Assembly: GCA_009841045.1 (NCBI GenBank)
Contig: VXMO01000052.1
Location: forward strand, 1 to 35,856
Length of the DNA: 35,856 nt
Reading direction: 5' to 3'
From: Dehalococcoidia bacterium
Lineage (GTDB): Bacteria > Chloroflexota > Dehalococcoidia > UBA6926
Part shown: positions 18,362-30,682 of the stretch, one piece after another
Layout: every line of letters starts with the position of its first letter
How positions within the stretch are numbered: the stretch's first letter is position 1
The notes under the pieces: model-generated
What the model was told of the DNA's origin: nothing
Databases searched by the model: none
Seen by the model: the letters and a program-made list of their open reading frames with translations, nothing else
Translations under genes and position numbers: made by a program

Positions 18362-19084
18362 ATGACGCCGTCGGAACACGTAGATAACACCGCCGCCCCG
18401 CAGCACGTCGCCATCGTCATGGATGGCAACGGACGGTGGGCGCGAGAACGGGAGCTCCCCCGCGAACAGGGCCATCAGCATGGCCGCATCAAGCTGCATG
18501 ATGTCGTCCGCGCGTTCTCTGAGCGCGGCGTCCGCTACCTGACCCTCTACGCCTTTTCAACCGAGAACTGGCGGCGCCCATCCGAAGAGGTCGAAGGCTT
18601 AATGACGCTTGCCGCCGAAGCCATCAAGCAGGACGCCCCTCGCCTCCATCAGGAAGGCGCGCGGCTGGTCCACCTCGGACGCAAGGATCGCATCAACCCG
18701 GACATCGCCGCCGCCATCGACCGTGTCGTTGACATGACCAAGGGCAACACCGGCATCACTCTCAGCGTCGCGTTCGACTACGGAGGCCGCGAGGAGATCC
18801 TTGAAGCGGCCAGAACCCTGTTGCGGGATGATATCACTCCCGACGACGTAAACGAATCCACCTTCGCCAGTCGCCTGTTCACCAACGGCCTGCCCGACCC
18901 GGACCTCATCATCCGCACCGGCGGCGAACTGCGTATCAGCAATTTCCTGCTCTGGCAGGCCGCCTACGCCGAGCTCTACTTCACCCCAACCCTTTGGCCG
19001 GACTTCGGCCCCGAAGAAGTGCGAAAGGCCCTCGACTCTTACGCCGCCCGCAAACGCCGCTTCGGCGCCCTGGACGGAGAATAG
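18362..19084 (+). CDS. uppS: isoprenyl transferase (undecaprenyl diphosphate synthase family)
   Basis: Cis-prenyltransferase that builds the C55 lipid carrier for cell-envelope polymers from IPP and FPP. The 240-residue product has the catalytic MDGNGRWA (Asp21), YAFSTENWRRP, and RTGGELRISNFLLWQAAYAELYF with the substrate-binding arginine/serine cluster. It follows frr by 18 bases in the conserved gene order. The next gene in the pathway cluster, cdsA, is separated by an opposite-strand toxin-antitoxin cassette. Confidence 0.95.
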   Translation: MTPSEHVDNTAAPQHVAIVMDGNGRWARERELPREQGHQHGRIKLHDVVRAFSERGVRYLTLYAFSTENWRRPSEEVEGLMTLAAEAIKQDAPRLHQEGARLVHLGRKDRINPDIAAAIDRVVDMTKGNTGITLSVAFDYGGREEILEAARTLLRDDITPDDVNESTFASRLFTNGLPDPDLIIRTGGELRISNFLLWQAAYAELYFTPTLWPDFGPEEVRKALDSYAARKRRFGALDGE

Positions 19085-19096
19085 ACTCCACCGTCA

Positions 19097-19456
19097 TTAC
19101 GGGTTTGAGTCAAGCATCGCTCTCAATTCCCTTACCAATACTGGTAGGTCGTTGACTAGCACGTCCCAGATGATATTGTCGTCAATTCCGAGATACACAT
19201 GAGCGATTCGATTGCGCGCGCCGATGATGCTTCCCCACTCGACTGCTTCCTGTAGTTGACGCGCGTCTACTGGAACGTGGGTGGCAGCCTCACCGATTAA
19301 TTCAAGATTCCGCAGCACGGCATCATACGTGCGTTCATCGGCAAGGAAATTGGCCTGGCTCATGCCCTCAACGTACGATAATGCCTTCTCCGCAAATCCG
19401 ATCATGTCCTGAACATAGAGACGCCAATCTCGGGAGTTTTCCCGTGTCTCAGACAT
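19097..19456 (-). CDS. HepT-like HEPN ribonuclease toxin
   Basis: A 119-residue all-helical HEPN protein of the HepT (DUF86) family. Residues 81-88, RNRIAHVY, match the R-x4-H-x-Y motif exactly: Arg81 and His86 are the predicted RNase residues and Tyr88 the residue modified in known HepT proteins. EWGSIIGARNRIAH and the preceding NLELIGEAA are typical. It overlaps the upstream nucleotidyltransferase gene by eight bases (same strand), the usual antitoxin-first order. It ends 12 bases beyond the uppS stop, convergent. Confidence 0.85.
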   Translation of the reverse strand: MSETRENSRDWRLYVQDMIGFAEKALSYVEGMSQANFLADERTYDAVLRNLELIGEAATHVPVDARQLQEAVEWGSIIGARNRIAHVYLGIDDNIIWDVLVNDLPVLVRELRAMLDSNP

Positions 19457-19967
19457 GCACGGCTTCTTGCTCTATTCGGGGCCTCAACTCGGGACGTAGG
19501 GCGTTCTGGGTAACCAGATCGACGCGACGTCTCAACAGGTCCTCCAGAAATGCTTGCAGCCCAAAGAAGGCCTTGGATGTAGCGCGGCCATCAAATCCGA
19601 CGAGAATGTCGACGTCGCTGCCCTTTACCGCCGTATCCCGAGCATACGAGCCGAACAGGGCCAGATCGGTAATGCCGAACCGCTCGACCATGACCGGTTT
19701 GTTCGCTCTAAGCGTTTCAAGCACGTCGTCTCTGCTCACGTTGGCGACAACGTCGTCATGGCCCAGCCCCACATGCCTTGCCAATTCAGAGGCATAGAGA
19801 ATGGCAGCCTTGATGGCATCCTTGGACACGGAGGGGAAAGAACGAGTGATTTCATTGACATCAAGGCCATCGGCCAGCTTGTCCAAAATGACCGAGACGG
19901 GAACGTCTGTCTCGGCGATGCAGGCTTCCGATTCTGAGTTTACGGTTATGTAATCGCGCAAGTTCAT
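19449..19967 (-). CDS. MntA-type nucleotidyltransferase antitoxin fused to an N-terminal DUF433 domain
   Basis: A 172-residue protein with two parts. Residues 4-66 (YITVNSESEACIAETDVPVSVILDKLADGL, EITRSFPSVSKDAIKAAILYASELA, described here by two segments) resemble DUF433, a small winged-helix-like domain found in other antitoxins. Residues 78-172 are a minimal nucleotidyltransferase with GSYARDTAVKGSDVD at 106-120, an exact GS-x10-D-x-D. In studied HepT/MntA pairs this enzyme AMPylates the toxin tyrosine. The ATG at 19967 is preferred over the TTG at 19979 because GAGG lies six bases upstream. The DUF433 part may provide DNA binding for autoregulation; that is inference. Confidence 0.8.
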   Translation of the reverse strand: MNLRDYITVNSESEACIAETDVPVSVILDKLADGLDVNEITRSFPSVSKDAIKAAILYASELARHVGLGHDDVVANVSRDDVLETLRANKPVMVERFGITDLALFGSYARDTAVKGSDVDILVGFDGRATSKAFFGLQAFLEDLLRRRVDLVTQNALRPELRPRIEQEAVHV

Positions 19968-19991
19968 TGGCTGCCTCAACTGTCTCTATCG

Positions 19992-19997
19992 AGTATA
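19992..19997 (-). promoter_or_regulatory. -10 box of toxin-antitoxin promoter
   Basis: TATACT on the minus strand, 24 bases before the antitoxin ATG. The -35 region is not recognisable. Confidence 0.4.
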
Positions 19998-20037
19998 TCG
20001 GCCTTCTGCCACATTCTACGGAGTATTGGCATTCCCC

Positions 20038-20043
20038 CATAAT
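20038..20043 (+). promoter_or_regulatory. -10 box of cdsA (CATAAT), possible leaderless start
   Basis: CATAAT ends six bases before the cdsA ATG at 20050, with no Shine-Dalgarno sequence in between. The predicted transcription start coincides with the start codon. Confidence 0.4.
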
Positions 20044-20049
20044 CTCCTT

Positions 20050-20898
20050 ATGGGTACGAACAACCAGGACAACACGGCGAGTAGCCGGGATTCCCTGCCT
20101 CTCCGCCTCGCCACCGCCGCCGTCGGCATCCCGATCCTCGCCGCCGCCGTCTGGCTGGGCAGTATCCCTCTTCTACTCGTCACGGCGGCCGCAACATTCC
20201 TGGGCATCTGGGAACTCCGCATGCTCCTGCGGCCCATGGGCCATGTCGTCTGGCCTGTCTCAGCCCTGCTTGCCGGCGCGTTCCTCTTTTCTGCCTCAAC
20301 CGACGACGCCTCCCCTGCCCTTATTGCCCTGACCGTCATCGGAGGCGGAACGCTGGGAGCCGCGCTGTTCGCGTTCAGACTCCGAACCTGGAGCGGCGCA
20401 CAGGCTTGGGTTGCTACCGTCATCGCCGCCGTCTATCCTGCTGTGTTCCTCGCCGCCGGCCTCTTACTGCGGGAGAAACCGGACGGCCTCGCCTGGCTTG
20501 GGTATGCCATCCTTATCACGTTCGCCTCCGACACCGCCGCCTACGCGGTCGGCAGCCTCATTGGCCGCCACAAACTCGTCCCGGCAATCAGCCCCAGTAA
20601 GACGTGGGAGGGCGCGATTGGCGGAATCATCGGCGCGGCTGTGGTTAGCGCCGCCTTTGCCGCGTTCATCGATTTGGACGCCCTCCCACTTGCAACGGCC
20701 ATAGCCCTCGGCGCAGGTCTCTCCGTGCTTGGCCAACTGGGAGACTTGGCCGAGTCCTGGCTCAAGCGAACGGCAGGCGTCAAGGACTCCGGCCAGCTTC
20801 TCCCCGGCCACGGCGGCATCCTTGACCGGCTCGATTCCCTTCTGCCGATTCTCCCCGCCGTTCTTGTCTATGTCACCATCGTCACTACTATGGAATGA
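20050..20898 (+). CDS. cdsA: phosphatidate cytidylyltransferase
   Basis: Integral membrane enzyme making CDP-diacylglycerol from phosphatidate and CTP. The 282-residue protein has about eight membrane segments and the C-terminal signature GQLGDLAESWLKRTAGVKDS followed by LLPGHGGILDRLDS. It also has SPSKTWEGAIGGIIGA and the upstream SDTAAY motif. ATG at 20050 is chosen; a TTG at 20026 with GGAG nearby is the alternative and would add eight residues. It reads into dxr with one base between stop and start. Confidence 0.94.
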   Translation: MGTNNQDNTASSRDSLPLRLATAAVGIPILAAAVWLGSIPLLLVTAAATFLGIWELRMLLRPMGHVVWPVSALLAGAFLFSASTDDASPALIALTVIGGGTLGAALFAFRLRTWSGAQAWVATVIAAVYPAVFLAAGLLLREKPDGLAWLGYAILITFASDTAAYAVGSLIGRHKLVPAISPSKTWEGAIGGIIGAAVVSAAFAAFIDLDALPLATAIALGAGLSVLGQLGDLAESWLKRTAGVKDSGQLLPGHGGILDRLDSLLPILPAVLVYVTIVTTME

Positions 20899-30050: not shown

Positions 30051-30281
30051 ATGCGTATATCTGAACGAGGCCAGATTACGATTCCCAAGGCGCTCCGCGA
30101 CCGCCTCGGAATGCACCACAACATCGAAGTCGAAATCACTTTGACGGAACAGGGACTACTTATCAGGAAGCGCGGTTCCGCCACACACCCGGTCGACCAG
30201 GTATACGGCATCCTTGGCAGAGACGCCTTGGGCGAAGGCGTCAGTGTCGATGACTACATTGAAGAGATTCGAGGCAGATGA
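30051..30281 (+). CDS. vapB: AbrB/SpoVT-type antitoxin (VapB)
   Basis: A 76-residue DNA-binding antitoxin. MRISERGQITIPKALRDRLGM is the classic AbrB swapped-hairpin N-terminus (here stated as residues 1-21), followed by VEITLTEQGLLIRKR. The C-terminal 30 residues would wrap the toxin. The ATG at 30051 is preferred over a GTG at 30030 because GAGGAA lies just upstream. Its stop overlaps the toxin start (ATGA). Confidence 0.88.
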   Translation: MRISERGQITIPKALRDRLGMHHNIEVEITLTEQGLLIRKRGSATHPVDQVYGILGRDALGEGVSVDDYIEEIRGR

Positions 30282-30682
30282 TCACCGCTGTCGACACGAA
30301 CATTCTTCTCGATGTCTTCCTCGCAAGTGATGAGCATGCCCCCCGGTCTCGGGAATGGCTGAGAGATGCCTATGAAGCGGGCGCAATCATCGTATGTGAC
30401 ATCGTGTACGCGGAGCTTGTCCCAGCGTTTACAGATCGCGCATCGTTGGACGGCGCATTGGAAAGAATGGGCATCACCGTCTCCCAAATTGACCGTTCCA
30501 CGTCCTACGAGGCCGGTTTAAGGTGGAAGCGCTATCGTGCCTCTGGCGGGCCTCGGAACCGGATAATCGCAGACTTCCTCATCGGTGCCCACGCTGCTGC
30601 AACTGCTGACCGCTTCCTTACACGCGACAGAGGCTTCTTCGCAAACTATTTCCCTGAACTACTGAGCGCTTCCACCTCATAA
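30278..30682 (+). CDS. vapC: PIN-domain ribonuclease toxin (VapC)
   Basis: A 134-residue PIN endoribonuclease. The acidic active-site residues are all present: Asp6 in VDTNILLDV, Glu46 in YAELVP, Asp99 in ADFLIGAHA and Asp117 in TRDRGFF. Overlaps vapB by four bases. Known VapC toxins cut tRNA or rRNA; the target here cannot be told. The pair sits between the mutase operon and DUF177. Confidence 0.9.
   Translation: MITAVDTNILLDVFLASDEHAPRSREWLRDAYEAGAIIVCDIVYAELVPAFTDRASLDGALERMGITVSQIDRSTSYEAGLRWKRYRASGGPRNRIIADFLIGAHAAATADRFLTRDRGFFANYFPELLSASTS

Follow-up and report, generated by a model that had tools for sequence, protein, structure and literature searches.

A DUF433 domain fused to an MntA-like antitoxin beside a HepT gene in a Dehalococcoidia bacterium

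MntA-HepT-type toxin–antitoxin pairs are common in bacteria. In these systems, MntA moves AMP from ATP onto the tyrosine of the R-x4-H-x-Y motif of HepT, silencing the toxin (PMC7641770). In a 35,856-nucleotide stretch of DNA from a Dehalococcoidia bacterium (contig VXMO01000052.1; hereafter the window), the antitoxin of such a pair appeared to carry an additional N-terminal domain, DUF433, raising the question of whether this fusion is genuine, how it arose and what the added domain does. A first-pass annotation had suggested that the fusion could combine enzymatic silencing of the toxin with DNA-binding autoregulation in a single protein. The features of the locus are as follows.

18362–19084, plus strand: uppS, one flank of the insertion site, assigned by sequence resemblance and gene order
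19097–19456, minus strand: HepT (HEPN) toxin gene, 119 aa, with RNRIAHVY as R-x4-H-x-Y
19449–19967, minus strand: fused antitoxin gene, 172 aa (DUF433-like domain, linker and minimal nucleotidyltransferase, MNT)
19764–19967, minus strand: DUF433-like domain, residues 1–68, a hairpin and three helices, from the Pfam match, the 2GA1 fold match and the conservation table
19740–19763, minus strand: flexible linker, residues 69–76, with pLDDT <50 at 69–73; stand-alone MntA homologues start at 74–77
19452–19739, minus strand: MNT domain, residues 77–172, with GS-x10-D-x-D as GSYARDTAVKGSDVD
20036–20054, no strand: perfect palindrome CCCATAA-N5-TTATGGG, between the antitoxin and cdsA starts and overlapping the cdsA start (ATG 20050)
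20050–20898, plus strand: cdsA, the other flank of the insertion site, assigned by sequence resemblance and gene order rather than by family search

Domain composition and the HepT partner

The protein encoded at 19449–19967 is a real fusion of DUF433 with a minimal nucleotidyltransferase. Pfam searches match residues 14–59 to DUF433 (PF04255; 46.0 bits, cut-off 23.6, E 4.6e-12) and residues 93–170 to NTP_transf_2 (PF01909; 57.8 bits, cut-off 21, E 1.4e-15), and the frame is open, with zero stops between the two domains. The start codon, ATG 19967, lies 7 nt downstream of a GAGG Shine-Dalgarno sequence, and its methionine aligns with that of stand-alone DUF433 proteins (MNLRDYI / MDWRDYI). Owing to damage in its conserved N-terminal loop, the DUF433 match begins only at position 11 of the 56-position profile. 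The domain order read by the first-pass annotation is borne out by these searches, as are the intact GS-x10-D-x-D of the fusion and the R-x4-H-x-Y of its partner.

The partner gene encodes a HepT-like protein (PF01934, 89.7 bits), and its start and the stop of the antitoxin gene share 8 nt (ATGTCTGA), an overlap that recurs in G002, one of the two congeners compared below. Under a definition by Pfam family, motif and neighbour, as in PMC7641770, the pair is assigned as MntA-HepT-like (type VII): NTP_transf_2 with GS-x10-D-x-D adjoins a PF01934 HEPN protein with R-x4-H-x-Y. Because its scores against the NCBIfam equivalog models (43.1 bits for MntA, 42.1 bits for HepT) are both below the cut-off of 60, MntA here denotes a protein that is MntA-like in its domain, its motif and its gene order. 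The pair resembles the MntA-HepT systems of S. oneidensis (SO_3165/SO_3166) and Legionella pneumophila in its antitoxin–toxin order with overlap, in its PF01909 and PF01934 families, in both motifs and in the MNT fold. In contrast to known MntA proteins, which are single domains of ~100–140 aa, the fusion adds an N-terminal DUF433 and misses the NCBIfam cut-offs. Its MNT part matches PADLOC PDLC04906 (1.5e-27 over residues 79–171), and likeness to the PADLOC candidate PDC-S09, whose defence status is that of a candidate, is limited to this part.

An AlphaFold model, for which the fusion was aligned to 20 DUF433 domains and four MNT proteins, all stand-alone, has a mean pLDDT of 88.8, with each domain at ~90 and residues 69–73 below 50. 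Both domains are confidently predicted to fold, while the pTM of 0.59 means that their mutual arrangement is not fixed. A PDB fold search pairs the C-terminal half of the model with 1wot and with 7bxo, 6m6u and 8xeo, which are MntA structures, and the N-terminal half with the DUF433 structure 2ga1 (probability 1.00, TM 0.56 by target length). Searching with a profile built on the DUF433 set likewise finds 2ga1 (9.9e-13) and, weakly, 5af3.

Rarity of the architecture and its origin at the uppS/cdsA site

No second intact DUF433-MNT fusion held up in whole-protein searches over ~810 distinct genomes of the phylum. A search with the DUF433 family yielded one other DUF433-MNT reading frame, of 209 aa, in genome G029 (contig C51; L141:2484–3113). 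Its DUF433 ends after position 39 of the 56-position profile, with helix 3 missing, its motif reads GS-x10-N-x-D, with the first catalytic aspartate changed to asparagine, and no HepT-like gene is apparent beside it. This frame is independent of the fusion in the window and visibly degraded. Plasmid matches extend over no more than the MNT half, all falling short of 80% of the query, and the viral and phage collections yielded no relative. A scan of 84,980 species was seeded by short exact peptides, detects close relatives only and therefore says little about other phyla. The literature searched, including a toxin–antitoxin paper that mentions both domains, likewise yielded no account of a DUF433–nucleotidyltransferase fusion. 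This agrees with the first-pass annotation, which did not recognise the layout as a described type; the DUF433 match is significant, and the fusion is very rare, not common, among the ~810 genomes of the phylum.

Several further candidates were rejected. In G161 (L047/L095), a BLAST match spans residues 20–171, yet nothing recognisable as DUF433 lies in its upstream part, which is a chance extension in an open GC-rich frame. A match to residues 23–170 in G539 (C1:4454341) is, by Pfam, a nucleotidyltransferase alone, and the matches past a stop in G001, G241 and G250 are ordinary stand-alone DUF433 genes.

Other arrangements of these domains were also observed. In G223 (contig C60; L093:1469–2212), a stand-alone DUF433 gene precedes a short, broken sequence similar to the beginning of a DUF5615 toxin, after which comes a nucleotidyltransferase gene (2.2e-10); a DUF433-MNT-type fusion could arise from such a layout. 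A 220-aa frame in G013 (L030:1105–1764) has, ahead of its MNT domain, a winged-HTH match too weak to reach the cut-off (8e-4) and is possibly another HTH-MNT fusion. On a Gloeocapsa plasmid, a 243-aa protein with two tandem MNT domains (L140:1638–2369) precedes a DUF86 gene of unusual length.

The comparison within the genus covered three genomes, that of the window (G000) and those of the congeners G001 and G002. In G002, uppS, hepT, mntA and cdsA occur in identical order and orientation with no DUF433; its MntA has 98 aa and is 60% identical to the MNT part of the fusion, and its HepT is 64% identical. In G001, only a short gap separates uppS and cdsA. Given the orthologous pair lacking DUF433 in G002 and the empty site in G001, the simplest account is that a pair already in place gained DUF433 in the G000 lineage. 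On this account, the pair itself entered the uppS/cdsA site in a common ancestor of G000 and G002, with DUF433 joining later; among these three genomes, loss of DUF433 in G002 is the less likely alternative. MNT homologues begin at fusion residues 74–77, and codon 77 is GTG where many of them have ATG, placing the fusion junction just upstream of the old mntA start. Between G000 and G002, the mntA core (pN 0.26, pS 0.85) and hepT (pN 0.24, pS 0.82) are fast-evolving yet constrained by purifying selection, next to values of 0.07 and 0.52 for uppS.

Condition of the DUF433 domain and its upstream region

The donor subfamily of DUF433 is present in the genus. In a tree of 42 domains, built on 69 columns and with most of its forks weak, the fused DUF433 groups with stand-alone members from G001, G002 and other families in a clade of strong support (100/99), and a DUF5615 gene (9.3e-22) comes after the G002 member. 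The fused domain has the longest end branch of this clade (0.63; other members 0.02–0.34). Two further DUF433 genes in the genome of the window each adjoin their own DUF5615 gene; the fused DUF433 is an orphan, with HepT alone beside it and no DUF5615 or PIN toxin.

Its hallmark residues were compared with 41 other domains, all stand-alone save one row, which comes from the degraded G029 fusion. An invariant glycine and an invariant arginine (41/41 each in the others) are replaced by S and D, and a glycine (39/41) and a proline (38/41) are also lost. The GK...GTR loop is degraded to SEACIAETD with a three-residue deletion and no longer follows the pattern G-K/Q-P/A-x-I-x-G-x-R, while the Pfam match and the 2GA1-like fold are kept and most conserved positions are retained in the three-helix part. 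The net charge of the hairpin is −4 (0 to +5 in the 41 others), and that of helix 3 is +1, the most basic of the 42 (others −5 to 0). Such losses and charge shifts would fit either decay or a changed surface; the basic helix 3 and the well-predicted fold are a point against simple decay, and the loss of the invariant glycine and arginine means that DNA binding cannot be assumed.

In its 2GA1 fold and its kinship with the stand-alone subfamily of the congeners, the domain is like the COG2442/DUF433 antitoxins (VapB10 of Synechocystis with its PIN toxin; DUF433-DUF5615 pairs). However, it differs from them in lacking a DUF5615/PIN neighbour, the invariant G and R and a free C-terminal tail, and in being joined to an enzyme. 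The Rv2018 type also places DUF433 within a two-domain antitoxin (Makarova et al. 2009, PMC2701414), but there the second domain is DNA-binding, whereas here it is a nucleotidyltransferase. Elsewhere in the window, a PIN-like ORF of 134 aa (MITAVDTNILLDVF...; 30278–30682, plus strand) is possibly a VapC toxin, as judged by eye.

The region upstream of the antitoxin, for which the first-pass annotation had envisaged DNA binding, contains the palindrome CCCATAA-N5-TTATGGG and no other inverted repeat in 19940–20070. The palindrome is identical in G002, inside an otherwise diverged stretch, and has no further exact copy in the G000 or G002 genome. One of equal size occurs in ~6% of shuffled 150-mers, so that conservation is the stronger argument for it. 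The conserved element may be the cdsA start that it overlaps, and the palindrome could instead be a site for MntA or for cdsA. Since G002 has it without DUF433, we rejected it as evidence of a DUF433 operator, and it does not speak for autoregulation by DUF433. Related stand-alone DUF433 genes showed no inverted repeat in common upstream, and a sigma-70-like scan gave nothing above shuffled expectation. On the minus strand, the palindrome holds AAGGAG-N3-ATG, which opens an out-of-frame ORF of 59 codons (20040–19861).

Silencing of HepT and possible roles of the added domain

We consider it probable that this locus is a type VII pair at uppS/cdsA that later acquired DUF433 by fusion and whose MNT domain silences HepT. 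A mobile MntA-HepT pair would have inserted between uppS and cdsA in an ancestor of the G000 species and a congener, and a VapB/COG2442-type DUF433, which usually serves as antitoxin to DUF5615 or PIN toxins, would have joined the MntA N-terminus in frame, just upstream of the old start, in the G000 lineage only. By analogy with stand-alone systems, the MNT domain would adenylylate the tyrosine of RNRIAHVY and so silence the RNase, an ordinary type VII mechanism that is likely at the core of the pair. DUF433 would then be a folded, flexibly tethered extra, dispensable for silencing. The adenylylation and toxicity of HepT are thus putative, as is any activity of DUF433. For the role of DUF433, decay as a passenger is our tentative first choice, slightly ahead of regulation through altered binding at its own promoter, which is possible but rather doubtful; a protease handle or some other role ranks lower.

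As a passenger, DUF433 would be eroding after an in-frame gene-end fusion that was tolerated because the MNT domain still works. The singleton status of the fusion among ~810 genomes, the longest branch of its clade, the lost hallmarks and the visible degradation of the independent G029 fusion are all consistent with this reading, making it plausible though short of compelling. The open frame without a stop, the good Shine-Dalgarno sequence, the confident predicted fold and the conserved positions held in the three-helix part argue against it.

A protein that silences its toxin through MNT and autoregulates its operon by DUF433 promoter binding, as the first-pass annotation envisaged, seems unlikely. 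VapB10 does provide a precedent, as this antitoxin of the DUF433 family activates its own promoter and binds to a promoter region that contains an inverted repeat (PMC3834315), and the fused domain keeps a three-helix core matching 2ga1 with an unusually basic helix 3. However, four conserved residues and three loop positions are gone, the hairpin has turned acidic, the palindrome is older than the DUF433 addition and lacks a companion repeat nearby. Stand-alone MntA may, moreover, already autoregulate: for SO_3165 of S. oneidensis, binding to and repression of its own promoter, a region with two palindromes, have been reported (PMC4621449), so that a contrast between an MntA that only silences and a DUF433 that adds autoregulation is weaker than stated. 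The one studied case of DUF433 autoregulation, VapB10, is also activation rather than repression. The architecture and motifs behind this proposal stand, whereas its DUF433 autoregulation is unsupported, possible yet unproven. Somewhat more doubtful still is a hybrid antitoxin pairing type VII covalent silencing with transcriptional control by a captured type II domain, whose DNA-contact surface would have been reshaped into an acidic hairpin and a basic helix 3.

DUF433 could alternatively act as a protease handle, rendering the antitoxin unstable and providing a conditional on-switch that is absent from enzyme-type antitoxins. ClpXP2 (ClpXP2s) degrades VapB10 (PMC3834315) and the model has a flexible linker, but HepT that is still adenylylated would stay inactive after loss of the antitoxin alone, leaving this role improbable. 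Initiation within the frame at GTG77, the very position at which many homologues carry ATG, would yield a stand-alone MntA with the upstream part as a separate product or leader, and is the least credible reading, given that the dozen bases before it hold no Shine-Dalgarno sequence, whereas ATG 19967 has one, and that no stop divides the two domains.

The fusion of DUF433 to an MntA-like antitoxin is a new architecture, to date seen intact once, and its genus offers an unusually clean natural comparison. The G000 and G002 loci occupy the same chromosomal site with the same toxin family, with and without DUF433, which allows a direct test of what the added domain does. If DUF433 is active, the fusion would show antitoxin families swapping regulatory parts; if it is inactive, the locus would clearly exemplify a domain that goes unused while carried along by a working antitoxin.
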